Part shown: positions 1 through 63,945 of the stretch, one piece after another
Layout of the letters: each line of letters starts with the position of its first letter
Numbering within the stretch: position 1 is the stretch's first letter
Source: Fluviicola sp.
GTDB lineage: Bacteria > Bacteroidota > Bacteroidia > Flavobacteriales_D > Crocinitomicaceae
Length of the DNA: 64,000 bases
Reading direction: 5' to 3'
Assembly: GCA_002734085.1 (NCBI GenBank)
Contig: NVXV01000001.1
Span: 377,860 to 441,859, forward strand
Notes under the pieces: generated by a model
Seen by the model: only the letters and a program-made list of their open reading frames with translations
What the model was told of the DNA's origin: nothing
Databases searched by the model: none
Made by a program: the position numbers and the translations under genes

Positions 1-189
1 GCAACGATAAGTAATATAAGTACTGGCAAGGTTTACCCTTCAGTTAAGTTTTTGATTGAAGTTTCAGAATATCTGGATGTTGATATAAGAGAGATGTTTG
101 TATCAACAAAGGGTGGAGTATTAACATCCGTAGATAAACAAAAATTGAAGGATGTTTTAAACGAGGGAATTAACTTATTGAATAGTTGA
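1..189 (+). CDS. C-terminal part of an XRE-type HTH regulator (cut by window edge)
   Basis: Frame 1 is open from the window edge to TGA at 187-189 and gives 62 residues. The text (ISTGKVYPSVKFLIEVSEYLDVDIREMF) resembles the last helices of a Cro/C1-type helix-turn-helix domain, where a conserved small-residue turn leads into 'P-x-x-x-x-L-x-x-x-A/S-x-x-L-x-V'. About 25 residues follow (DKQKLKDVLNEGINLLNS), possibly a short dimerisation helix. The DNA-recognition half lies outside the window, so the target cannot be guessed. A terminator-like hairpin follows at 253-287. It is probably a regulator belonging to the mobile region on the left. Confidence 0.7.
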   Translation, partial: ATISNISTGKVYPSVKFLIEVSEYLDVDIREMFVSTKGGVLTSVDKQKLKDVLNEGINLLNS

Positions 190-252
190 AATTATGAACC
201 ATCTCTTGCAGTCATAAATCCGCATGTTACTAGAATGCGGAATGAGTTTGGG

Positions 253-287
253 ATAATCTAACTCCAATACTGGTCAGATTATTTTTT
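253..287 (+). terminator. Weak rho-independent terminator after the HTH gene
   Basis: A 7-bp inverted repeat (ATAATCT at 253-259, AGATTAT at 276-282) is followed by a run of six T. The stem is AT-rich, so it would be weak, but its place 60 bp after the HTH stop codon fits. A further 7-bp inverted repeat (219-225 and 235-241) lies between without a T tract. Confidence 0.4.
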
Positions 288-304
288 GAAATGAGGGGTG
301 ACTA

Positions 305-442
305 TTGGACATAGATAGTGAATCTATTGGGGAAGACAAAACACTATTGAAAATTGAAGATTTTACAGGTAGAGAAGTAAATTTCAACCCCAACACTCCT
401 TTGATTTATATCTACTCTGATAGTACGGTAGAAAAAAAGTAA
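305..442 (+). pseudogene. Relic of a T9SS C-terminal sorting domain (frameshifted)
   Basis: A 45-codon frame reads DKTLLKIEDFTGREV, then NPNTPLIYIYSDSTVEKK, then stop. This matches the end of T9SS type A cargo proteins, which typically read 'LLKIvDvtGRev..tpNtPLiYiYsDGtVEKk.iie'. A stop codon lies in frame just upstream (299-301), so there is no room for the cargo part. Inserting one base in the A-run at 432-438 would continue the frame as VIMK, close to the usual terminal VIIE; the natural glycine of 'SDGT' is serine here. I read it as the broken end of a former secreted protein left at a junction. Expression as a 45-residue peptide from TTG is unlikely. Confidence 0.7.
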
Positions 443-521
443 TTATGAAACAAAATTACCTGATTATTTCAATATAATTTATAACTTAGTTGTGATTTAG
501 GTGGTTAGGTTAGGTTGATTA

Positions 522-566
522 ATAAGAGGGAAAAGAACGCTCGTTCATTCCCTCTTATGTTTTTTT
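522..566 (+). terminator. Strong rho-independent terminator
   Basis: Perfect 11-bp inverted repeat (ATAAGAGGGAA at 522-532, TTCCCTCTTAT at 548-558) followed by G and seven T. It lies downstream of the T9SS relic and suggests that the relic was once the end of a real transcription unit. The rest of 443-521 and 567-776 shows no further gene that I can support. Confidence 0.8.
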
Positions 567-776
567 GCAACTTTGTATTAAACTACCATCTCCATAATTC
601 ACTGACGTCAAAATGAAAAGAGCAATTTGTATTTGAACTCTTATTTACAAAAAGAGTATATTTAAAAAAAATATAAGGTATCACTACTTTGCTTCTCTCT
701 ATTCAAAAACCGAGGGGGATTTAAGGCATGTGGTTGATATATAGTATTTGGCAGTAATTTAAATAAAAAACACATC

Positions 777-1442
777 ATGAAACAAATGAAACCTCTAATC
801 TTTGCAGTAATTATTATTACGTTTTATTCCTGCACCTCTAATTCTGAGAAAACATTGAAAAATGATTCAGTTGAAAGAAACATTGCTATTACACAATTTC
901 AAGATTCTATTCAAAAAGTAAACGACTCCGTTCGAAAAGTAGAAGAATTTGCAATTGCACAACTAAAAAAGGATTCCATTGAAGATTCACAAATCAAAAG
1001 ATATTCAGTTGAAAAAATATCTGGTAAGCATAAATACGGTGGGGCTACCAAAATTCAGTATAAATCTTTATTTCAATTACTTTCTGAGATTGAAAAGAAA
1101 GCAAAAAAGGAAATGTGGACGTATGAGGAAAAGAAGTCCAAGATTGACGCTTATAAAAGTTTTTACAAAGGAGGGGAAATTAGACTTGATATTGAAAGAA
1201 CAACCTTAGGAGCGGCAAACACTAAATATTTTTCAATTATCATTAAAGACCTTGATGAAAATGAATTATATAGAAAAGACCTTGATTCAAATATACCTGA
1301 AACTCCAAAATCTAATGATTATTGGTGGAATATTAGCATTGAAGGTATTGATAAGAGAATAAGAGCTCCTTTTTATGTTTACGTTGTTGATAAACTTGAG
1401 GATGCCCCATTTAAGTTCGAAGTTACACCTGTAAAAAACTAA
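777..1442 (+). CDS. Hypothetical lipoprotein, 221 aa
   Basis: The N-terminus has two lysines, a hydrophobic stretch (PLIFAVIIITF) and the lipobox-like YSC with the lipidation cysteine at residue 19, so this is very likely a membrane-anchored lipoprotein. Residues 25-75 are charged and probably helical, with a repeated 'DS(I/V)xKV' pattern. The C-terminal 100 residues look like a beta-rich domain (RLDIERTTLGAANTKYFSIIIKDLDENELYRKDL) with 'YWWNISIEGIDK' and 'PFYVYVVDKL', which recalls a C2-like or small immunoglobulin-like fold. No family was recognised. It stands alone between a terminator and the AcrVA2-like gene and is probably cargo of the left-hand element. Confidence 0.75.
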   Translation: MKQMKPLIFAVIIITFYSCTSNSEKTLKNDSVERNIAITQFQDSIQKVNDSVRKVEEFAIAQLKKDSIEDSQIKRYSVEKISGKHKYGGATKIQYKSLFQLLSEIEKKAKKEMWTYEEKKSKIDAYKSFYKGGEIRLDIERTTLGAANTKYFSIIIKDLDENELYRKDLDSNIPETPKSNDYWWNISIEGIDKRIRAPFYVYVVDKLEDAPFKFEVTPVKN

Positions 1443-1551
1443 GATATACTGGTAGTAGAAAATAAACGCAAGCCACTATAATACATATACGGTAGCCGTA
1501 TGTACCTATTCTATGTATTAGGGGTGCTTTTAAAGCGACACTGATTATATT

Positions 1552-2721
1552 ATGACAGAAAATGAACTTTCATATTTTTTCCCATACAAAGTTGACAAAA
1601 AATTTAACTTTCGCCATTTTGCAAGAAATCAAAACGATTTCATACGACAATTTATTCCTAATTATGACGGTACAAATGTTCACGATTTTATAGAAAATAA
1701 ATCTTCGTTGAATGAACAACAAAAATATGATTTACTTTATCTGTACGAAGATTTTAGAAATTGGGTTTGGTGGTATCAAAATGGAAAAAATATATTTTCA
1801 TTTTCAAAAGATTTGCTAACAATACTTGAAAAAACGGACGTCAGTGAAATTACACCTGACTTTTTTCATTTACCATACGACATTTTTTATGTTTCTCTAA
1901 AACCTTTAAACTTAAAAATATCAAAATACAGTGATGAGGTTATAGAAGGTGTTTATATAGACCATAACTATTGGAATCCATCTGGAGAACATCCAGAAGG
2001 TTATTGTGATTTATCTTTTCGTTTTGTGGGGGATTTTAAAGAAATATTTTTAAACTTTATTCCAAACGTTAATAGTAGATTGTCTATAAACACAAAAAAG
2101 GAAGAAGTTCAATTTATCGAGTCGCCATTAGGTAATTTCTGGACTGTTTGGTTTTGGTTTGAAAAAGAAGAAGGGAGGGAAAACGTAAAACAGGCTGTTG
2201 ACTATTTTTTAGAAGGACTTAGAGAAGAAGTTTTTCCAAAAGACAATAATACAAAAGTTACTGACTATGAATTGGACTTTTACAATTCTACTGTTGAGTT
2301 GCTCACGAACACGATTAATCTTGTGATTAATTGTATGTTATATTTATCGCAGCCACAAGAAAAAACAGACATTGAAGAAAAATATCCAACAAACCTACCG
2401 CACAACTTTGATAAAAAACTAAAATTTGCCAAGACAGTAAAAGAACAAAAGAAGCTTGATGGAAAAATCGAACAATTAGGTTTTACGAAAATAAAATACG
2501 TTGGACAATCTTTTAAGCACAACAATCAATATTTATTTGACGACACTAATCACAATACCCAACCTCATTGGAGGCGTGGACATTGGCGAAATCAAAAATA
2601 TGGAGAAAAACTAACATTAAAAAAGGCAATTTGGATAATGCCTACAATTGTGAATAAAGAAAAAGGACAACCCAAAAAAGGACATGTTTACGACATTAAT
2701 GAAAAAACAACGAACCCCTAA
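1552..2721 (+). CDS. AcrVA2-like family protein (putative anti-CRISPR family)
   Basis: 389 residues, no signal peptide or membrane segment. The C-terminal motif PHWRRGHWRNQKYG (338-351), followed by KKAIWIMPTIVN (358-369), matches the end of AcrVA2 and its many homologues on mobile elements, which read roughly 'PH.RRGHW.....G......vrW..p.fVN'. The middle also follows that family: 'HLPYDIFYVSLKPL' (106-119) before 'VIEGVYIDHNY', then a helical 'LTNTINLVINCMLYLSQP' (251-268), where AcrVA2 has '..LLPYLLWLCVAEPDI'. AcrVA2 inhibits Cas12a production; most homologues are uncharacterised, so activity here is inference. The gene is monocistronic, preceded by an ATACGG-TAG-CCGTAT hairpin (1487-1501) and followed by a hairpin over its stop codon. 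Confidence 0.6.
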   Translation: MTENELSYFFPYKVDKKFNFRHFARNQNDFIRQFIPNYDGTNVHDFIENKSSLNEQQKYDLLYLYEDFRNWVWWYQNGKNIFSFSKDLLTILEKTDVSEITPDFFHLPYDIFYVSLKPLNLKISKYSDEVIEGVYIDHNYWNPSGEHPEGYCDLSFRFVGDFKEIFLNFIPNVNSRLSINTKKEEVQFIESPLGNFWTVWFWFEKEEGRENVKQAVDYFLEGLREEVFPKDNNTKVTDYELDFYNSTVELLTNTINLVINCMLYLSQPQEKTDIEEKYPTNLPHNFDKKLKFAKTVKEQKKLDGKIEQLGFTKIKYVGQSFKHNNQYLFDDTNHNTQPHWRRGHWRNQKYGEKLTLKKAIWIMPTIVNKEKGQPKKGHVYDINEKTTNP

Positions 2722-2734
2722 TAGGTGTTTCGTT
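2709..2734 (+). repeat. Hairpin across the stop codon of the AcrVA2-like gene
   Basis: Imperfect inverted repeat AACGAA-CCCCT / AGGTG-T-TTCGTT with a 3-base loop, overlapping the TAA stop and followed by CAACGGTTAGTGATG rather than a T tract. It may be a weak terminator, or part of a cassette-type boundary as often flanks single hypothetical genes in Bacteroidota accessory DNA. The DNA from here to 2961 shows no gene that I can support. Confidence 0.35.
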
Positions 2735-2961
2735 CAACGGTTAGTGATGTTCTCAGAAAGTCGCCACTTGACTTGTTGACGACCTTCATCCACAAACTGA
2801 ACAATATCCCTAAATAAATAGACAAACAGCAAAATCTTACATAAAGGAATATAAAGACCAATTCGATTTTGTAAAATAACCTGAGATTTGCAAATGGAAA
2901 GCGGTAAAACAATTTCAAGACAATTGAGGTGTTAATACACCTGCCTTCTATGTAGCATAAT

Positions 2962-3756
2962 CTATGTGATAAGAATTTTTCTCAGAGGGATTTTTTTTGG
3001 AGTAAATTCACCTATAACCTTGGGTTGAAAATCTGAGAACTCAACTTCAATAATATCATCAATCATTTTGAAAGTTTTGGTAACTCTATCTGGTGCTGAT
3101 TGAATATTGCCGTACTCATCATAATAATCATCTTGCGGAACACAATAATTTGAAAGTACCATTTTGATAAATCCACTTCCTCCTTTTCCATCTAAATCCC
3201 ATAAATAAAGAGCTTTGACGTTAGACCAGTAAAGAAACCTTTCATATGCTTTTAGTTTTATTTTTTTATTAAAATTATACTCATCATCTTCATCTATATC
3301 AATAAAGCGAGAATCATCATACGGTATTATCCAAAAAACGTATATGTTATTTCTAGCATATGATTGAGTTCTTCTTGATATTTCATCAAAAGAGATACTC
3401 GATGATTGTACCTCAATTCCTATTTTGGTTCCTTTCTTAGTTTCAATATACACATCAGCTCTAATTGAATTATCCCCAAGCCATTTTTCCGTTTCAATTG
3501 ATTTAACTGATTTGTAATTCTCAGAGATATGTTCGAATATTTGAAATTGTATCTCTAAGTGTTCAAAGGACATTGGTTTGTAGTTTGAACAATCAGATTT
3601 TCTATGTTTAAAGTGACCTATTCGAATACCTGACTTAGATTTGTGATGAATTAATTCTTCACTACATTTTTCACAATAGTAATTTTCATTTGGATTCTTT
3701 TCTATCATTTGACCAATGACCTTTTTAGAATCACTATTTCTTATAGCTGAAAGCAT
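2962..3756 (-). CDS. CoiA-like nuclease-family protein
   Basis: 264 residues. The N-terminus has the zinc-finger-like pattern of competence protein CoiA: YYCEKCSEEL (C28, C31), then HFKH (H48, H51) and C56. It is followed by a restriction-endonuclease-like core with D101 (IRADVYIE) and the E-x-Q signature IGIEVQSSS (E115, Q117), as in CoiA and Holliday-junction-resolvase-like nucleases. CoiA is needed for DNA processing during transformation in Gram-positives. In Bacteroidota, CoiA-like proteins are often found in accessory regions, so a defence or element-maintenance role is equally possible. It is transcribed divergently from the 3880 gene across a 7-bp inverted repeat. The start ATG is at 3754-3756. 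Confidence 0.75.
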   Translation of the reverse strand: MLSAIRNSDSKKVIGQMIEKNPNENYYCEKCSEELIHHKSKSGIRIGHFKHRKSDCSNYKPMSFEHLEIQFQIFEHISENYKSVKSIETEKWLGDNSIRADVYIETKKGTKIGIEVQSSSISFDEISRRTQSYARNNIYVFWIIPYDDSRFIDIDEDDEYNFNKKIKLKAYERFLYWSNVKALYLWDLDGKGGSGFIKMVLSNYCVPQDDYYDEYGNIQSAPDRVTKTFKMIDDIIEVEFSDFQPKVIGEFTPKKIPLRKILIT

Positions 3757-3759
3757 TAT

Positions 3760-3783
3760 TGAAGTTTTTGTAATTGAACTTCA
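3760..3783. promoter_or_regulatory. Inverted repeat between divergent genes (possible operator)
   Basis: TGAAGTT (3760-3766) and AACTTCA (3777-3783) form a perfect 7-bp inverted repeat with a 10-bp spacer, lying between the start of the CoiA-like gene and the rightward gene at 3880. The arrangement is that of an operator read by a dimer; the XRE protein at 4107-4343 is a possible reader. There is no direct evidence. Confidence 0.35.
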
Positions 3784-3879
3784 CTAAAATAGTAAAATTT
3801 GATAACCGTTCAAACTCCACTAATAGCAAACCTCATCTTTCTCGTAACACATTGGAATCTTCCTATTATCCTTGTCCAC

Positions 3880-4110
3880 ATGGAAAAGGAACTGTCAGAA
3901 CACAACTTCACAATAAGCGATAAGGAAGCCTTAAAGCACTTAAAAGAATTCATGGGGTTAACAACGCCTAATGGATTATTAAAGTCGCTGCAAAGGGCTT
4001 TATATGCGTATCTATTGGAACAGGGTGAAACAGGATTAGAAGCGGAATTTAAAAAGGTCGTAGAAGACAACTATTTGTTGTTTGAATTTCTGAATAAGCT
4101 TAACGACTAA
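3880..4110 (+). CDS. Small hypothetical protein, 76 aa
   Basis: The frame is open from 3799, but the residues before Met 28 look like out-of-gene text, whereas from 3880 (MEKELSEHNFTISDKEALKHL) the protein is a compact amphipathic alpha-helical unit, so I place the start at 3880. The sequence ends LLFEFLNKLND. There is no signal peptide, membrane segment or recognised domain. Its stop overlaps the stop of the convergent XRE gene by four bases. The convergent pair could be a regulator with a small effector (toxin-antitoxin-like), but nothing in the sequence proves that. Confidence 0.5.
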   Translation: MEKELSEHNFTISDKEALKHLKEFMGLTTPNGLLKSLQRALYAYLLEQGETGLEAEFKKVVEDNYLLFEFLNKLND

Positions 4111-4343
4111 AAATCCACCAATTCAGACACACTAATTTCAAAGGCATCAGCAATTCTTTTAAGCATTGAGATTTTCATTTCTTGTTTACCAAGTTCATAC
4201 TTCCTTAAATTTTGAGCATCAAGACCAGCTTTATATGCAATTTCTTCAATGCTAACACCCTTTGACTTCCTAAGTTCTCTTAGGTGTTTACCTAACTCAA
4301 TGCAGTAATTAGATACATTCTTTTTTTGTTCACTTTTTGCCAT
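4107..4343 (-). CDS. XRE-family HTH transcriptional regulator, 78 aa
   Basis: A complete small Cro/C1-type regulator. Residues 14-75 form the five-helix domain: LGKHLRELRKSKGVSIEEIAYKAGL, the recognition segment DAQNLRKYELGKQEM, then ISMLKRIADAFEISVSELVDF. The polar first ten residues (MAKSEQKKNV) suit a cytoplasmic DNA-binding protein. The ATG is at 4341-4343. The 50 bp upstream separate it from the rightward promoter at 4395-4423, so it could control that promoter as well as itself. This class is common as element-borne repressors. Confidence 0.85.
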   Translation of the reverse strand: MAKSEQKKNVSNYCIELGKHLRELRKSKGVSIEEIAYKAGLDAQNLRKYELGKQEMKISMLKRIADAFEISVSELVDF

Positions 4344-4394
4344 ACTTCAAATCTGTGAACAAGTCGTTGATTTTAACCAATTGCCAATAACAGG

Positions 4395-4423
4395 TTGTGT
4401 ATAACCTTTTTTATATATATTTG
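4395..4423 (+). promoter_or_regulatory. Bacteroidota sigma-A promoter for the 4443 lipoprotein gene
   Basis: TTG at 4395-4397, 18 bp spacer, then TATATTTG at 4416-4423, a full match to the TAnnTTTG -7 element of Bacteroidota. The ATG of the lipoprotein gene follows 20 bases after the -7 element, leaving a short leader. Confidence 0.65.
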
Positions 4424-4442
4424 TGAAAAACACTATCTAATT

Positions 4443-5018
4443 ATGAAGAAAATAAATTTTTTATTAGCATTAGCGTTCGTTTTTACATCTTGTAACAAAG
4501 AAAATCAAGAACCAACTGAAACACCCACTACACAAAACAACGGTGGAACGACACAATTTCAGTATAGTGGTGATAATTTCGCTGGAAAATGGAAGTTAGA
4601 TAGCGTAACCGTCTTTACTGCCAATACAACTAATGTGAACTCCCAAGACACTATAACGTACATGCCGTCTGAGGTTGGTAGTACATTTACAATGGAAATT
4701 TATGGAGAAGTGTACAATGAGACCACAGGAGACTTCGAAAAGACAACAATAGTTGAAGCAGATGATATGTTAGAGGTTGATAACAGACCTCATGGTCGAC
4801 TATATGGTGGATTGTCTGTTAATAGTGATGTAACCACATTAGCATCGGCAATTTTATCAACAGAAGAAAACGGTGAAGAAGAAGATATTTATCATTTTAC
4901 GTATAGTGGAATGCATAATATCAGAGAATATGTTCTAGTAGATAATAATCATATTTTGGTTACGGCTGAAAGCGGATTTGGAACCGCACTGTGGGAATAT
5001 TTTACCAGAGTTAATTAA
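4443..5018 (+). CDS. Hypothetical lipoprotein, 191 aa
   Basis: An earlier in-frame ATG exists at 4395, but it lies inside the promoter; the start at 4443 gives a clean lipoprotein signal (MKKINFLLALAFVFTSC, cysteine at 17). After a threonine/glutamine-rich linker (residues 20-38), 'FAGKWKLDSVTVF' begins a lipocalin-like beta-rich domain of about 150 residues, a common Bacteroidota lipoprotein layout. It ends 'TALWEYFTRVN'. The ligand and role are unknown. It is followed after 85 bp by the membrane-protein gene at 5104. Confidence 0.75.
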   Translation: MKKINFLLALAFVFTSCNKENQEPTETPTTQNNGGTTQFQYSGDNFAGKWKLDSVTVFTANTTNVNSQDTITYMPSEVGSTFTMEIYGEVYNETTGDFEKTTIVEADDMLEVDNRPHGRLYGGLSVNSDVTTLASAILSTEENGEEEDIYHFTYSGMHNIREYVLVDNNHILVTAESGFGTALWEYFTRVN

Positions 5019-5103
5019 TCTACTTGTATGGTACTTAGAAAAAGGAAAGAAGAGTATTTTTTAATAAATGACACATTGAGTGATTTCATTATATATTAAA
5101 ATT

Positions 5104-5517
5104 ATGCTTGATAAATCAGTCGTAATTAATGTTTACACACCTCTATTAATTGGTAGCATAATTTATATTCTTTTTAGAGGTGATTCAATTTTCGTAAAAA
5201 GCTGGTTGGATTTAAAAAATCACACAATACAATCAATCAAACTCCCTAGCTGGATGATTTATTCCTTTCAAGACGGACTTTGGGCATATTCATTTGTTTC
5301 GGCAATGAACTTGCTTTGGAAAAATAGCAAACATATATATCTATGGCTGTTTATCTCAATTATATTGATATTCGGTCACGAAGTTGGGCAAGGGGCAGGT
5401 ATTATTCATGGGACTTTTGACTTAGTTGATATCTTCTTTTATTGCTTAGGTGTTATCCTGAGTTTATTATTCACAAGTAAAAAATCAAATTATGAAACAA
5501 CATTTTCGATTCTTTAG
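5104..5517 (+). CDS. Small multi-pass membrane protein (VanZ-like appearance)
   Basis: About 137 residues from the ATG at 5104 (an in-frame ATG at 5080 is possible). Four hydrophobic segments are visible: TPLLIGSIIYILF, DGLWAYSFVSAMNLLW, YLWLFISIILIFG and VDIFFYCLGVILSLLF. The end reads E-V-G-Q, then GTFDLVDIFFYCLG, which recalls the 'E..Q......D..D...N..G' pattern of VanZ-like proteins, although the aspartate spacing is only approximate. Its last 26 bases overlap the next gene in another frame, suggesting translational coupling. The function is unknown. Confidence 0.55.
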   Translation: MLDKSVVINVYTPLLIGSIIYILFRGDSIFVKSWLDLKNHTIQSIKLPSWMIYSFQDGLWAYSFVSAMNLLWKNSKHIYLWLFISIILIFGHEVGQGAGIIHGTFDLVDIFFYCLGVILSLLFTSKKSNYETTFSIL

Positions 5518-6040
5518 TTCATTAGCAGTAATTGGTTTCTTTTTATTCATAGCCTACTCTTCTGGTGAGTCATCATCATTCGAACCAAAAGATTTAAGTC
5601 AAGCTAGTCAGGATGATATGTTAAATGCACTTGCAAGTGAAGAAATGACTGAAAACATTGATGCTGGTGGAGGCATAATGGAATATGATATTACTCTCAA
5701 TATAAATAATAATGGAACATTTACTTACCAAATGAAAGAGAGTACTTCTCAAACTGTGGATTACGTAGATGCTAGTGGAAATGTAACATTTGTAGGTAAT
5801 GTTGAAAAAGTAGATATTCCAAGTTCTGACTCGTATCAATATGAACAGGCTTTATTATTTAAAGGTACAGATGATGAGGGGAAGCCATTTGAACTGAAGG
5901 GGTCGATTGTCCAATTTGTTTATGAGGTAGGAGGAATGCAATACGACTGGAATATAAGTTATGATAGTTACGCTATTTCAAGCCAAAAATCCGTTAGCAT
6001 TAAAAATTACCGATTACCGTTTGATGATTTTACTCCCTAA
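5492..6040 (+). CDS. Hypothetical exported protein, 182 aa
   Basis: Starts with a signal peptide (MKQHFRFFSSLAVIGFFLFIAYSSG) without a lipobox cysteine, so it is periplasmic or an uncleaved membrane-anchored protein. From residue 60 it reads as alternating beta strands (MEYDITLNINNNGTFTYQM, VDASGNVTFVGNV), a small lipocalin/META-like fold in style. It overlaps the preceding membrane-protein gene by 26 bp and is followed after 11 bp by the SHOCT protein gene, so the three are probably one transcript. No family was recognised. Confidence 0.6.
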   Translation: MKQHFRFFSSLAVIGFFLFIAYSSGESSSFEPKDLSQASQDDMLNALASEEMTENIDAGGGIMEYDITLNINNNGTFTYQMKESTSQTVDYVDASGNVTFVGNVEKVDIPSSDSYQYEQALLFKGTDDEGKPFELKGSIVQFVYEVGGMQYDWNISYDSYAISSQKSVSIKNYRLPFDDFTP

Positions 6041-6051
6041 CGTTTGAAAAT

Positions 6052-6729
6052 ATGGAAACTATAAAAATAAGGTTCCTTGATGGACTTCTTACATTTGATG
6101 ACTCAAGTGTTCAATTCAATGCAGACAACCCTAACCTACCAAGGATTCAAAGCATTAATTTAAAAGACGTTGGAACTTTAAATTACAGTAATTACATCTT
6201 TTTAAAACGAATGCCTATTCAATATGGGCTTAGGTTTGGTTTGGGTGGGATTCTTATAATAATTGCATCCATAATATTGGGGTACGCTTTAGATAAAGGC
6301 TCTTTAATGAGTATTGGAGTTACTGTAGGTATAATTATGGAATTCTTTGGTATTTTCCTTGTTCTAGGAGATTTAATCATTGATGGACTTTTTGGCGGTT
6401 CATTGATTATAGGTATTTGTGAAAGTATTTGGGGAGAAAAGGGGTTTGAAGTAAATATAAATCATAACTCTGGGAACCAAGGAATATGTTTTTATACAGC
6501 ATTAGATGAGGAATCAAAAATTAAGAAAGCGATAAAAGCATTAGAAACCTCTGTCAAAGGATTTAGCAAATCTGAATCCGAAGCAACTCAACACAAAAGG
6601 AGTCATGAAACTCCAAAAGAAAGCACGAACACTTTAAAAGACCTTGAAAAACTTGCAGAACTGAAAGATAAAGGAATTATTACTGAGCAAGAATTTGAAC
6701 TGAAAAAGAAACAAATTCTCAATCTTTAA
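6052..6729 (+). CDS. Membrane protein with C-terminal SHOCT domain
   Basis: 225 residues. A soluble N-terminal portion (1-62) is followed by two hydrophobic segments (FGLGGILIIIASIILGYAL and IGVTVGIIMEFFGIFLVLG), a third weaker one around GGSLIIGICESIW, and a charged linker. The last 30 residues (DLEKLAELKDKGIITEQEFELKKKQIL) are a classic SHOCT domain, the short C-terminal helical pair with 'L..L...G.IteeEFe.kK..lL', usually involved in oligomerisation or protein contacts. The first 50 residues (IKIRFLDGLLTFDDSSVQF) look like a small beta domain. The biochemical role is unknown. It is the last gene of the probable 5104-6729 unit. Confidence 0.75.
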   Translation: METIKIRFLDGLLTFDDSSVQFNADNPNLPRIQSINLKDVGTLNYSNYIFLKRMPIQYGLRFGLGGILIIIASIILGYALDKGSLMSIGVTVGIIMEFFGIFLVLGDLIIDGLFGGSLIIGICESIWGEKGFEVNINHNSGNQGICFYTALDEESKIKKAIKALETSVKGFSKSESEATQHKRSHETPKESTNTLKDLEKLAELKDKGIITEQEFELKKKQILNL

Positions 6730-6891: not shown

Positions 6892-8646
6892 CTATAGTAA
6901 ACTAGGATATAGTTGTTGAGAAACTACACCCTCAACAACCATAATCATATCTTTATCAATAAGTATATTCTTATAATCAGACAACGGGTATCTATTTTCT
7001 TTAAATACATTTAACATAGCTCTACAAACCTCATCGAGAGTTGCCTCACTCTGATTAATAAACATTTGAAAGCTGAGTATTGTGTCGATATCAATGTCTC
7101 TTCCTAACCTGTTATAAATGTCTATCATAAACTGTTTAATATTTATGGTGTCACCTCTTTTCACATCATCTAAGATGCTTTTTTCAATAGTTGGATATGA
7201 ATCTTTTTGGGTAGAACTATACTTTTTGTTATCATTAATCTCAAGTTCCATAGCATCAATAATCTTAGCAATATCCTCTGCATCATATTTAACCTTAAAT
7301 TCAAGGTCATTTAAAGCTTCTTCTTCAATTATGGGTGGAAAACCTAGGCTTTGGTTTAAAACGCCACTCATGACCTTCCTAGCCTCTTCTAATTGATTCT
7401 CGTTGACTATTACTGAATCATGGATGGTATATGGAACAATACCTTTATCACATAGCCTCTTAGCAATGCCATCCATGAATATTTCAGACTCTATCTGTTG
7501 AAGACATATCGCTAGCTTATTGTACTTCTTTTGCTTGAACTTTCTAAGTAATCTACCAAGACCTTTATACTCTTTTTCAAATGCTGACTTGGATGTATTA
7601 TACTTTTCAGAATAATTACCAGAATAAGCTAATGCCATCCATAATGATTTAGACATATTCCTTGTAAAGATGTCGGTACTATAATGTTTATTGTATATGT
7701 CTGCTATATGATTATACCATGTTCCATTACTTGTATATTCTTTATATATGGGTATTTCTTTCTTTAGTATATCTACCCATTTTGAATCCTTCTTAATCCA
7801 TTGGTATATAAGGGATATAGTCTCTTTTATATACTTGTTCTTATAAGATAGAGTAAGGAATATTTCTTCTAAACTTATATCATCATTAATCAACTTATAA
7901 ATAATATCTAGAATAATATTGAACAGTACAGGTTGACTATTCTTTAAATCCAACTGATATAAATCAACATCTGCTATAATAAATTTCTTATAGTATGACT
8001 TTAGTGAAGTAAGGTTTGAATCAACTCTATAATTTTTATTATTCCTTTTAAAATATCTACGATTCATACAGTTCTTTTTAAAGCATATTATATCATCATA
8101 AATAGTTACGAATTGTTCAGTGCTTAATCGGTCTCTATTATTTTCTAAATGCTCTAATGCTGAGCTAACATCAAGCTCCATTTTATAAAACCCTTTCCTC
8201 AATTGTTTAAAGTGAGTTTCTTTACCCTTAGCTAACTTTTGTTCTTTATTATGTCGCTTCTTTACATACTTACCGTATGTGCAATCAAGACTAATCGGAA
8301 TTACAGTCATGTCATCAACCCCGTTAATAGATATAGCATTCTTAATACTATAAGTTCTGCATTTGCCTTCTGTGTATTGGTGATTTTCGATAATAACATT
8401 ATGGTGCCTCATGTAATCTAACATCTTACGATAGGGTCTACCATACTTCTGTTGAAGTATTTTACTTGATAGCGGTACCATCCTATTATCCTCATCATAT
8501 AATTTAACCGTAATATCCCTTAGCATACCATAGAATCCTTCTATTTCGTATTCAAATAGTGGAGGGTTAGTTTTTATGGTAGATTGAACCTCATCATATA
8601 GAGAGGTGGGAAGGCTAATTTCGAATTGCTTCTTATATTTAGCCAT
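6892..8646 (-). CDS. Divergent family A polymerase-like protein (element replication protein?)
   Basis: 584 residues, no membrane segment. Three motifs in order match family A polymerases (Pol I, T7 DNA and RNA polymerases). Motif A is YQLDLKNSQPVLF with D233. Motif B is RNMSKSLWMALAYSG with R329, K333 and Y341, the R-x3-K-x7-Y spacing of the O-helix. Motif C is TIHDSVIV with H409 and D410. Between B and C runs 'LAICLQQIESEIFMDGIAKRL', where family A has a helix ending 'IQG..AD'. The usual exonuclease domain is missing. The first 200 residues (YGRPYRKMLDYMRHHNVIIENH) may be a DNA-binding or priming region. It sits alone on the minus strand, next to the ribbon-helix-helix gene and serine recombinase. 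A replication or repair polymerase of the element is inference. Confidence 0.6.
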   Translation of the reverse strand: MAKYKKQFEISLPTSLYDEVQSTIKTNPPLFEYEIEGFYGMLRDITVKLYDEDNRMVPLSSKILQQKYGRPYRKMLDYMRHHNVIIENHQYTEGKCRTYSIKNAISINGVDDMTVIPISLDCTYGKYVKKRHNKEQKLAKGKETHFKQLRKGFYKMELDVSSALEHLENNRDRLSTEQFVTIYDDIICFKKNCMNRRYFKRNNKNYRVDSNLTSLKSYYKKFIIADVDLYQLDLKNSQPVLFNIILDIIYKLINDDISLEEIFLTLSYKNKYIKETISLIYQWIKKDSKWVDILKKEIPIYKEYTSNGTWYNHIADIYNKHYSTDIFTRNMSKSLWMALAYSGNYSEKYNTSKSAFEKEYKGLGRLLRKFKQKKYNKLAICLQQIESEIFMDGIAKRLCDKGIVPYTIHDSVIVNENQLEEARKVMSGVLNQSLGFPPIIEEEALNDLEFKVKYDAEDIAKIIDAMELEINDNKKYSSTQKDSYPTIEKSILDDVKRGDTINIKQFMIDIYNRLGRDIDIDTILSFQMFINQSEATLDEVCRAMLNVFKENRYPLSDYKNILIDKDMIMVVEGVVSQQLYPSLL

Positions 8647-9101: not shown

Positions 9102-9220
9102 TTTAATTGTTTTTTAATTAACCGTTATAATAATAAATACCTTTGTACATACAAAAACACCACCGTATTGCAATTAATTGAACTTTTAATGAATTCTATT
9201 GTTCTTTTGCCACCCATAAA

Positions 9221-9300
9221 GTGCTTAAATAGCTCCTTTACCTCACTATATTATCACCTAAAACGTAGTATATACAGACGTATAGGTGCTATTTAAGCAC
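9221..9300. repeat. Long inverted repeat with GTATATAC box in a non-coding region
   Basis: GTGCTTAAATAGC (9221-9233) and its perfect reverse complement (9288-9300) flank 54 bases that contain a GTATATAC box at 9268-9275. The arms lie in the 558 bp without genes between the ribbon-helix-helix gene and the 52-codon ORF. It could be a replication origin, recombination or regulator site of the element. Strong pairing over 13 bp in AT-rich DNA makes cruciform extrusion possible. Confidence 0.6.
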
Positions 9301-9399
9301 CACCATCAACGATTATATAATGTGCTTCACGTAGCCTCGACCATTTTTCTCAAAAAATATGATGACTTTACGTAACCCCTCTTTATAAAGGTGGATAGA

Positions 9400-9420
9400 A
9401 AGTTGTCGTATATACAACTT
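9400..9420. repeat. Short palindrome with GTATATAC core
   Basis: AAGTTGT (9400-9406) and ACAACTT (9414-9420) flank seven bases. A second GTATATAC box lies at 9408-9415. Likely a protein-binding site; the ribbon-helix-helix protein encoded next to it or the serine recombinase are candidate readers. Confidence 0.5.
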
Positions 9421-9466
9421 GATGTGGTTCGTAAATTTTTTTTATAAAAAAATAGGAGATAGTACT

Positions 9467-9493
9467 GGTGTATATACAGTTTACTGTTACACC
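9467..9493. repeat. Nested palindrome with third GTATATAC box
   Basis: GGTGTA (9467-9472) pairs with TACACC (9488-9493), and inside it ACAGT pairs with ACTGT around a two-base centre. The third GTATATAC box is at 9470-9477. Three such boxes about 60-140 bp apart, each in its own inverted repeat, suggest repeated binding by one protein. The remaining DNA up to 9659 is AT-rich and shows no gene. Confidence 0.5.
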
Positions 9494-9659: not shown

Positions 9660-9818
9660 TTGAAAACTTTATACAGAGATAGTTCGAAAGAAAGAAAACT
9701 ATCCATTAAACAATTTAAAGAACTCATAGGGGATGATTCTATCCCAGATGAAGTAGCTGTTAAAATAATTGACAGCTTATATCAACTAAGCTTAATTGCT
9801 TACGAAATAACACAATAA
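9660..9818 (+). CDS. Small ORF upstream of the serine recombinase, 52 aa
   Basis: A TTG-started frame of 52 codons; a stop codon (9648-9650) shortly before means it cannot start earlier. The protein starts MKTLYRDSSKERKLSIKQFK and ends with a helical part, EVAVKIIDSLYQLSLIAYEIT. It ends 21 bp before the recombinase ATG in the same direction, so the two are likely co-transcribed. Candidate role: recombination directionality factor or other recombinase partner, by position only. No known domain was recognised. Confidence 0.5.
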   Translation: MKTLYRDSSKERKLSIKQFKELIGDDSIPDEVAVKIIDSLYQLSLIAYEITQ

Positions 9819-9839: not shown

Positions 9840-11521
<1,682 letters not shown>

Positions 11522-14093: not shown

Positions 14094-14516
14094 TTATTTC
14101 GCAAACAACTTATCTATATCAGTAAACCCCTTAAACTCAAGTGCATTTCCGGCAGGGTCTAAAAAAAACAACGTCGCTTGTTCACCAGGCTGCCCCTTAA
14201 ACCGAATAGTTGGTTCAATTACAAACTCAACGTTTGCTGACTTTAATCGGTCTGCAAGTTCTTTCCACTTTTCCATTTTTAACACAACACCATAATGCGG
14301 AACAGGAACCTGATCTCCATCAACAGGGTTATAGTGCAGTTTTGTTTTGTTAGGACTATAATGAATAACAAATTGATGCCCATAAAAATCAAAATCAACC
14401 CAGTGATCTGAAGAGCGACCTTCTTTCATTTTCAGAGTATCACGATAAAATGTACGGCATTCTTCAAGGTTGTGAACGGGAACTGCTAAATGGAAAGGAC
14501 GTAGAGTTTTTGTCAT
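14094..14516 (-). CDS. VOC/glyoxalase-family protein
   Basis: 140 residues from the ATG at 14516 (the frame extends further, but the family begins at 'RPFHLAVPVHNLEECRTFY'). Two beta-alpha-beta-beta-beta modules are visible: LRPFHLAVPV...WVDFDFYGHQFVIHY and HYGVVLKMEKWKEL...ATLFFLDPAGNALEFKGF. Candidate metal ligands are H11, H85 and the glutamate in ALEF. Such proteins are metal-dependent lyases, dioxygenases or isomerases, or bind small molecules; the substrate cannot be told. Its stop is 10 bp from that of the metal permease. Confidence 0.8.
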   Translation of the reverse strand: MTKTLRPFHLAVPVHNLEECRTFYRDTLKMKEGRSSDHWVDFDFYGHQFVIHYSPNKTKLHYNPVDGDQVPVPHYGVVLKMEKWKELADRLKSANVEFVIEPTIRFKGQPGEQATLFFLDPAGNALEFKGFTDIDKLFAK

Positions 14517-14571
14517 AGTTTTTATTGCTATAATACTCAAAAAAATTCAATCCTAATTTTTATTTTATGAT

Positions 14572-14949
14572 TTATTCAACTCTTCGAATCCACAATACAT
14601 AACTTGATTGATTAATAGTAACAAACTCTTTAGCTACAATTTCTCCATAGCCATTAAAATCACGCGAAATGTTTCCAGAAATGTCACCGAAAACGGTTCC
14701 ATATAATGAAAGCTTTTTTTCACTACCCGAATCATTAAGCATATAATATTGTTTATAACCGTTATATGTATAGTCACCATCAACTGAAAAAATCAAAGTA
14801 TCATTTAAGGGTATAGGATTCGATGATGCAGACTCTCTATACTGCCAAATTTCCCATGTTGAGCCTGACAACTCATCTTCTTTGAAAGTCTCTTTTTGAC
14901 ATGAGGCAACAAGTATTAGTAGTGAAACGAGTAGTAAAATTGATTTCAT
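14572..14949 (-). CDS. Hypothetical small lipoprotein
   Basis: 125 residues from the ATG at 14947-14949, with lipoprotein signal MKSILLLVSLLILVASC (cysteine 17). An in-frame ATG at 15003 would add 18 unlikely residues. The mature part begins 'FKEDELSGSTWEIWQYRES' and shows alternating strands typical of the lipocalin-like lipoproteins so common in Bacteroidota. The role is unknown. It is divergent from a lipoprotein gene of similar type at 15106. Confidence 0.65.
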   Translation of the reverse strand: MKSILLLVSLLILVASCQKETFKEDELSGSTWEIWQYRESASSNPIPLNDTLIFSVDGDYTYNGYKQYYMLNDSGSEKKLSLYGTVFGDISGNISRDFNGYGEIVAKEFVTINQSSYVLWIRRVE

Positions 14950-15105
14950 ATGTTCTATTTTTATATTTACTAAAGCCGTTCCAACAACCATGCCTAGAAT
15001 CATTTGTACTATTAAACCTCTTTTTTAAAAAGCATTAATTTCCAGTTTATTAAAAATTAAATTATATTTACCTCGTTAATTTATAACATACAAAACACTT
15101 ACCCC

Positions 15106-15510
15106 ATGAAAAACGGAAAAAGCACACTGTTTTTAGCTGCCACAATCGTTACGGTTTTAAACTTTTCAAGTTGTTCTAAGTATGAAGACGGACCGATGTT
15201 CTCACTACGAACGAAAAAAGCTCGATTAACTGGTGAATGGGAGGTTGTAAGAATTGGAAACGAAACTTTCCCACAAGATGGTTATTCCGTTGAAATGGAG
15301 TTTGAAAAAGATGGTGATTTCAGATATACCTATTCTTATGACACTTATAGTTATTCTTATAATGGTGAGTGGGAATTTTCTAGTGATAAGGAAGAAGTGG
15401 ATATAATTATTGACAACCAAGTAGAAACTTTTGAGATTTTGAGGTTGAAAAATGACGAGTTGTGGTTAGAGGCTTCTGATAATACCGAATGGAGACTAGA
15501 GGCAAAATAA
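15106..15510 (+). CDS. Lipocalin-like lipoprotein, 134 aa
   Basis: Signal MKNGKSTLFLAATIVTVLNFSSC with the lipid-anchor cysteine at 23. The mature domain starts 'KKARLTGEWEVVRIG' and continues with strand pairs such as 'MEFEKDGDFRYTY' and 'YNGEWEFSSDKEEVDIII', the pattern of DUF/lipocalin-like lipoproteins of this phylum. It ends with 'LWLEASDNTEWRLEAK'. It lies 12 bp ahead of the DUF4915-like gene and is probably co-transcribed. The ligand is unknown. Confidence 0.75.
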   Translation: MKNGKSTLFLAATIVTVLNFSSCSKYEDGPMFSLRTKKARLTGEWEVVRIGNETFPQDGYSVEMEFEKDGDFRYTYSYDTYSYSYNGEWEFSSDKEEVDIIIDNQVETFEILRLKNDELWLEASDNTEWRLEAK

Positions 15511-63588: not shown

Positions 63589-63834
63589 CTATAAATCGTC
63601 GAAAGGAGACCTTATATTTTTTAAATACTGTGTACTTACGTGGGTATAGGTTTCGGTTTTTCTACTGCTCTTATGCCCAAGAATTGCTTGTATATAACGC
63701 AAGTCAGTTCCGCTTTCTAAGTGATGCGTAGCAAAACTATGACGAAGCCAGTGTAGCGTTACAGGTTTATCTATATTGGTTTTTTTAATGACTGTTTCAG
63801 AACATTTTGTAAACAAAGAAGAAATAAGCCACAA
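63589..63834 (-). pseudogene. C-terminal fragment of a tyrosine recombinase
   Basis: About 80 residues remain: '[30 protein letters not shown]' (H-x-x-R-H box) and '[20 protein letters not shown]' with the catalytic Tyr. The first catalytic arginine and the whole N-terminal DNA-binding half are absent. Upstream in frame a stop occurs in the tRNA-Cys terminator (TAG at 63850-63852), and the only start is a TTG. The cut lies just at the terminator of tRNA-Cys, so the fragment is the leftover of an integrated element or of a recombination at that tRNA. The end SPFDDL is typical of XerC/D-like enzymes of Bacteroidota. Confidence 0.8.
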
Positions 63835-63869: not shown

Positions 63870-63874
63870 GTTTG

Positions 63875-63945
63875 AGGTCCCGAGCGGATTCGAACCGCTG
63901 TACGAGGTTTTGCAGACCTCTGCCTAGCCGCTCGGCCACAGGACC
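63875..63945 (-). tRNA. tRNA-Cys (anticodon GCA)
   Basis: 71 nt on the minus strand. Acceptor stem GGTCCTG/CGGGACC (one G-U pair), D-arm GCC/GGC, anticodon stem GAGGT/ACCTC with loop CTGCAAA giving GCA, T-arm AGCGG/CCGCT with loop TTCGAAT. Discriminator T; CCA is not encoded. It borders the truncated tyrosine recombinase. Confidence 0.95.

Follow-up and report, generated by a model that had tools for sequence, protein, structure and literature searches.

The locus raises the question of whether the 584-aa protein encoded beside a large serine recombinase gene is a family A polymerase and, if so, what it does for the element that carries it. The earlier note had proposed a self-replication, primase-polymerase or RNA polymerase function. 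Four explanations are weighed here: the protein could be the element's own DNA primase-polymerase, a primer-dependent polymerase, an enzyme making RNA, or a degenerate, non-catalytic polymerase. At a probability of about 0.6, we consider it most likely that this is a TV-Pol on a 13.9-kb tRNA-Met island, moved by the large serine recombinase, and that it serves as the island's own DNA primase-polymerase. Of the functions proposed earlier, replication or a primase-polymerase role is thus retained as the likeliest, and RNA polymerase becomes a lesser rival.

The island and its integration site

On either side, the island is bounded by the same 18 bp from the 3' end of tRNA-Met (Table 1; the window is the whole 64-kb stretch of DNA analysed). 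A hairpin terminator to the left of attL resembles the type that follows tRNA-Met in sister genomes, and the terminator that now comes after tRNA-Met is another one, situated on the element side. The att repeat and the displaced terminator therefore point to integration at the tRNA 3' end; as no genome with the same flanks and free of the element was found, integration is argued from these two features alone. The serine recombinase pointed out in the earlier note is indeed a close, divergently transcribed neighbour of the polymerase gene, and the integrative element supposed there is delimited by the att repeats.

Table 1. Features of the island, and relatives of its polymerase in huge phages. 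Positions are those of the window unless a contig or a record is named.
Feature	Position	Strand	Remarks
attL	contig C25:375398-375415		2.46 kb left of window start; identical to attR core
Small serine resolvase, 208 aa	C25:376612-377238 (window -1247 to -621)		near element left end
Remaining element within window	1..6729		CoiA-like nuclease (2962-3756, -); lipoprotein-like and membrane-protein-like ORFs
TV-Pol gene, 584 aa	6892..8646	-	ORF and predicted fold
Winged helix of TV-Pol	residues 1-125		model and alignments
Thumb region of TV-Pol	residues ~126-196		model and alignments
Palm and fingers of TV-Pol	residues 197-447		model and alignments
C-terminal extension of TV-Pol	residues 448-584		model and alignments
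Ribbon-helix-helix (RHH) protein gene, 52 aa	8943..9101	-	directly upstream of polymerase gene; conserved in L073
Related site GTACATAC (GTATGTAC on opposite strand)	9145..9152		just upstream of RHH gene; conserved in L073
Three GTATATAC palindromes, at 9268, 9408 and 9470	9268..9477		candidate operator/origin sites
52-aa ORF upstream of recombinase	9660..9818	+	no family found
Large serine recombinase, 549 aa	9840..11489	+	Resolvase, Recombinase, zinc ribbon; divergent from polymerase gene, 1.2 kb apart
attR core TTCAATGGTAGCGGGGAC (tRNA-Met 3' end)	11441..11458	+	exact 18-bp repeat
tRNA-Met (CAT)	11446..11521	-	integration site
Huge-phage members	LR756501 525444-526607; LR756502, LR756504, LR745206, LR756511; viral loci L145, L146, L149		unannotated records

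The 3' end of the recombinase gene reads through attR into the tRNA gene (11441-11489). As the predicted circle would continue this frame into other sequence, the tail of the recombinase may differ between the integrated and the excised state. The small serine resolvase could have a role in resolving multimers of a replicated circle. No helicase was found among the scanned ORFs of the element.

A sister genome (G404; L047 10107-20001) has the same tRNA-Met with a related recombinase and a type I restriction-modification cargo; in the slot of the polymerase there is instead a protein of 339 aa that matches HTH_36 weakly. Elsewhere in the window, an 86-aa open frame with a Phage_integrase match (63631-63810), situated beside tRNA-Cys (63874-63945), is probably the remnant of another island.

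Polymerase core and relation to the TV-Pol family

The ORF, its coordinates and the six residues D233, R329, K333, Y341, H409 and D410 agree exactly with what the earlier note had read as motifs A, B and C in their proper order. In an alignment of 19 sequences, collected through similarity alone and without motif seeds, seven residues (R207, D233, Y311, K333, E386, H409 and D410) are invariant, hence the motif match is not due to chance. In an alignment of 62 sequences sharing about 20% identity, the invariant positions are R207, D233, S237, Q238, G308, Y311, K333, E386, H409 and D410; K333 is thus kept in 62/62 sequences, and R329 in 59/62 (Lys in the other three). Since many of the 62 were recovered via a motif-A seed, whose patterns favoured KNSQP, the conservation of KNSQP in this set is partly circular, and the other invariant positions constitute more independent evidence. 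Both Asp residues on which the earlier note would have let its assignment depend are therefore invariant in homologues collected in either way. One sequence of the first alignment (L008), a phosphodiesterase picked up by chance, was removed.

The closest relative, L073, has 72% amino acid identity over aligned residues, with palm and fingers as the best-conserved region (82%); at a dN/dS of 0.21 in this comparison, the gene is under purifying selection. The tail (residues 448-584) is found in this protein and in L073 and is absent from most relatives in alignment A3.

Sequence searches against Pfam, NCBIfam, PHROG, PADLOC and PDB gave nothing credible for the 584-aa protein. DNA_pol_A had no match to it at E 10 and is absent from the families listed for the 62 members; the host encodes its own PolA, which scores 558 bits against this model. 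When the profiles of T7 RNA polymerase and PolA were compared with the group, motif C alone was aligned (E 0.0095 for T7 RNA polymerase), the PolA profile being narrow (Neff 2.2).

The AlphaFold model built from the 62-sequence alignment has a mean pLDDT of 83.8 and a pTM of 0.78, and its family A-type fold is well supported. Among solved structures, Foldseek ranks family A DNA polymerases highest, with apicoplast Pol, Bst and Taq at E values from 2e-5 to 1e-3, and it also matches the replication protein of the Zamilon virophage (E 8e-4). In VIA-align, family A polymerases match residues 131-451; the alignment with Z 14.2 (257 residues at 4.2 A) spans residues 141-451, and T7 DNA polymerase gives Z 12.5; T7 RNA polymerase chains are not among the VIA matches listed, and their absence there excludes nothing. 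As whole-chain TM-scores in Foldseek are low (0.2-0.3), the claim on the fold is limited to the polymerase core. For this core, the comparison with solved folds bears out the palm and fingers postulated from the motifs. The model contains helices 123-139, 144-155, 160-169 and 176-187, the structural match beginning near residue 131, and then a hairpin with strands 199-201 and 208-210 around the invariant R207. Residues 1-125, modelled on their own, form a winged helix that includes beta strands (pLDDT 80.6), matching Fur, ORC/Cdc6 and plasmid initiators, all at Z 6-8, so that none of them is singled out. Neither the domain search nor the model revealed an exonuclease domain, as the earlier note had held. 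Thus, the protein shares with Pol I and T7 DNA polymerase the fold of residues 131-451 and the order of catalytic motifs, but differs from them in lacking exonuclease domains and a Glu gate and in its D-x3-SQ motif A, and it has no significant sequence-profile match to them.

The statement that no characterised member of this exact type was known is at best incomplete, as the kind has been known since 2008 (PMC2579912) and the related CcPol has been assayed (PMC7581432). Iyer, Abhiman and Aravind described TV-Pols in 2008 as nuclease-free polymerases, never fused to nucleases, with a thumb, a hairpin Arg, two palm Asp residues, and an Asp and RxxxK in the fingers (PMC2579912). In one subset, a further N-terminal domain is present and the neighbouring genes encode a gamma-delta resolvase, an integrase or a transposase, often near restriction-modification genes; another is linked to a D5 helicase (PMC2579912). 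The authors listed TV-Pols of Bacteroidetes and predicted that primase and polymerase activities are combined in them (PMC2579912). The 584-aa protein has the minimal thumb of two helices N-terminal to the palm in the model, the hairpin Arg (R207, ahead of motif A), the two palm Asp residues within the core matched by the model, the RxxxK of the fingers (R329, K333), the nuclease-free chain, the extra N-terminal domain, the linked recombinase, the proximity to restriction-modification genes and the Bacteroidetes membership. Between motifs A and B, no Asp is invariant in the 62 sequences, G308 and Y311 being invariant there instead. In 2008, an all-helical N-terminal domain was predicted, whereas the winged helix modelled here contains beta strands.

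For comparison with the group, we took presumed TV-Pols of cyanophage Ma-LMM01 (MAP_030), of one Calothrix plasmid and of two plasmids of Polaromonas. MAP_030 would be the TV-Pol of the 2008 paper, judging from its motifs and its transposase neighbour. Motif A of these proteins reads D-VVK-CH, D-LKS-SQ, D-IEN-CH and D-LSN-CH, hence the D-x3-[SC][QH] spacing is a feature of the wider group: the departure from Pol I remarked on in the earlier note is real, but it is not unique to this protein. They also have a block of the LLQ-x2-E type, HD or HN at motif C and weak N-terminal similarity to the group. The profile comparison gave a score of 31.1 vs 14.1 for the reversed control, which is statistically weak (P 0.007). 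In sequence, the protein resembles other TV-Pols and Pol I only weakly. Its assignment to the family is based on motif order, domain layout, structure and context taken together, and we would class it as a divergent TV-Pol of Bacteroidota. A search for papers on tycheposons or Bacteroidota A-family primases found none in the literature collection searched.

The co-occurrence with recombinases that the earlier note had suggested checking is borne out: within 7 kb of the polymerase gene, a tyrosine recombinase is found in 57 of 100 loci, a serine recombinase in 14 and either in 66. A few of these loci are duplicates, and counting by clusters at 60% identity, which corrects for them, gives 41 of 70. 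For comparison, the whole 4.03-Mb host genome contains 21 Phage_integrase matches. In 35 loci, the gene immediately before that of the polymerase is a small HTH gene. The families of the 109 nearest neighbours include methylases, DUF3871 and a few AAA_24 ATPases, with no replicative helicase among the 25 commonest Pfam families.

Upstream palindromes and proposed functions of the polymerase

The RHH_1 match of the 52-aa protein encoded upstream of the polymerase (E 0.009) is under the Pfam cut-off. Every copy of GTATATAC in the window (n = 3) is situated in a stretch of 210 bp upstream of this gene, and in the 10.3 kb of L073 all four copies occupy the equivalent place. The octamer is a palindrome, matching the expectation for a dimeric binder. 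The cluster is known from these two loci; no common repeat or iteron was found in the 2.5 kb upstream across the other loci. L073 shares 2.4 kb of DNA, about 74% identical, comprising the polymerase gene, the RHH gene and the upstream region, whereas its large serine recombinase differs from that of the window. Thus, the polymerase-RHH block appears to be mobile as a unit between recombinases. The L073 element adjoins a short, possibly truncated ComM-like Mg-chelatase ORF (4467-5351), and two neighbours in the scan match ChlI, which suggests comM as another integration site.

In the proposed mechanism, the large serine recombinase would take the island out of and into the tRNA-Met gene. After excision, the N-terminal winged helix would recruit the polymerase to DNA, possibly to the GTATATAC cluster, the two-metal site of D233 and D410 would lay down or extend DNA on the exposed template, and a copy of the island would be made before it inserts again. 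The palindromes are probably bound by the RHH protein, which would thereby limit expression. Catalytic activity, attachment of either protein to GTATATAC and copying of the excised circle are predictions, and de novo priming would follow from the family prediction and the precedent of CcPol-MP, where the polymerase alone does not prime.

CcPol of SCCmec, a related TV-Pol, can extend primers by itself but needs its partner MP for priming, and it keeps the discriminator Glu of Pol I, E174 standing for E710 (PMC7581432). The CcPol-MP and PolA-SSB primases of Bacillota are related to TV-Pol (PMC7581432, PMC10061031). CcPol-MP likewise has a family A palm without an editing exonuclease and is found on a large-serine-recombinase element. 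However, CcPol is near Pol I, with a Glu steric gate and no N-terminal domain, whereas in the 584-aa protein the N-terminal domain is present and a Glu gate was not found. CcPol also adjoins an OB-fold protein and a helicase, neither of which was found in the scanned ORFs of the 13.9-kb element; an OB-fold SSB-like partner was sought by Pfam among its ORFs, MP itself not being recognisable by sequence. To our knowledge, CcPol-MP is the only assayed case within the TV-Pol family, and in both its lack of an N-terminal domain and its closeness to Pol I it is unlike the Bacteroidota group. In the Sputnik and Zamilon virophages, the TV-Pol of the replication protein is fused to a D5 helicase; no fused or linked helicase was found here.

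If another host enzyme primed, the protein could be a primer-dependent polymerase filling in or re-synthesising strands of the element, and CcPol without MP indeed behaves in this way (PMC7581432). This explanation would also agree with the failure to identify either an SSB-like partner or a helicase in the scanned ORFs, and with the Rep proteins that TV-Pol plasmids carry in addition. A plain gap filler, however, would need no winged helix, and the extra N-terminal one is conserved in the family; moreover, serine recombinases leave no gaps that would need filling in. We consider this explanation unlikely.

The same plasmids bear on a bolder version of priming, a self-contained initiator-primase: the winged helix would sit on a GTATATAC origin, and synthesis would start de novo with no Glu gate and no SSB or helicase partner, possibly with ribonucleotides. 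Such a protein would represent a TV-Pol class functionally distinct from CcPol-MP. As three plasmids with TV-Pol-like genes encode a separate Rep, a TV-Pol need not be an initiator. The RepA_N initiators (4pql, 4pt7 and 5kbj, which we take to be those of staphylococcal plasmids) have a winged-helix N-terminal domain of similar length, but the match (Z 5.9-6.7) is weak, like those to Fur and ORC, and they have no catalytic domain. We regard a self-contained initiator-primase as doubtful.

A T7-type RNA polymerase or a ribonucleotide primase would make RNA primers or transcripts of the element. No member of the 62 has Glu at D+3 to D+8, which CcPol and Pol I retain (PMC7581432). Q238 and V240 are the candidates for the E710 position, neither being Glu; hence sugar selectivity may differ from that of CcPol. 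Motif B, RNMSKSLWMALAY, has Met and Tyr at positions that presumably correspond to a Met and a Tyr of T7 RNA polymerase. The PHROG 'RNA polymerase' family matches four members (best E 7e-4) and Pfam RNA_pol one (E 0.018). On the other hand, the structural matches listed are DNA polymerases, and at K+4 most members share the Phe of Pol I, so that an RNA-making enzyme seems distinctly improbable. Least probable by far is a degenerate or repurposed polymerase, e.g. a DNA-binding regulator of the element. The winged-helix domain would suit such a role, and we know of no activity for any Bacteroidota TV-Pol, but both Asp residues, K333, R207 and H409 would hardly stay invariant across 62 sequences this divergent, nor would one expect the low dN/dS and the palm as the best-conserved region.

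The priming prediction of 2008 is directly testable on this protein, as it is one polypeptide whose fold is modelled well, whose catalytic residues are clear and for which there is a candidate binding site. The novelty lies in the details: the winged helix, the RHH gene with its palindrome cluster, the absence of Glu from the steric-gate region and an occurrence that is wide but has gone unrecognised.

Occurrence of the group

About 100 sampled relatives were recovered, nearly all from Bacteroidota. They are present in 11 of 395 genomes of the phylum sample (the own genome being counted, and two being a chance match or a broken frame) and in 12 of 240 genomes of the host family sample; nine other searched genomes of the host genus gave no match. 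A scan of 84,980 genomes yielded 67 loci, all those with named taxa belonging to Bacteroidota; alignment A3 was too divergent to serve for pattern scans. Thus, the group is sporadic yet widespread in mobile islands of Bacteroidota.

Viral contigs contributed 14 loci. The 584-aa protein as a single query gave nothing in the viral scan, nor did a Polaromonas TV-Pol find viral relatives. Family members are carried by phages of 595-735 kb and are up to 49% identical to the viral locus L146. This wide occurrence in Bacteroidota and huge phages has escaped recognition; none of the curated family models tested detects the group.

One relative in alignment A6 bears NUMOD4/HNH domains, perhaps an inserted homing endonuclease. 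On a Hymenobacter plasmid (NZ_CP060788, L015) that carries a polymerase relative, a 'nucleotide-binding protein' (14493-15266) matches the TIR domain of the CAP12/Pycsar effector (E 1.5e-24).
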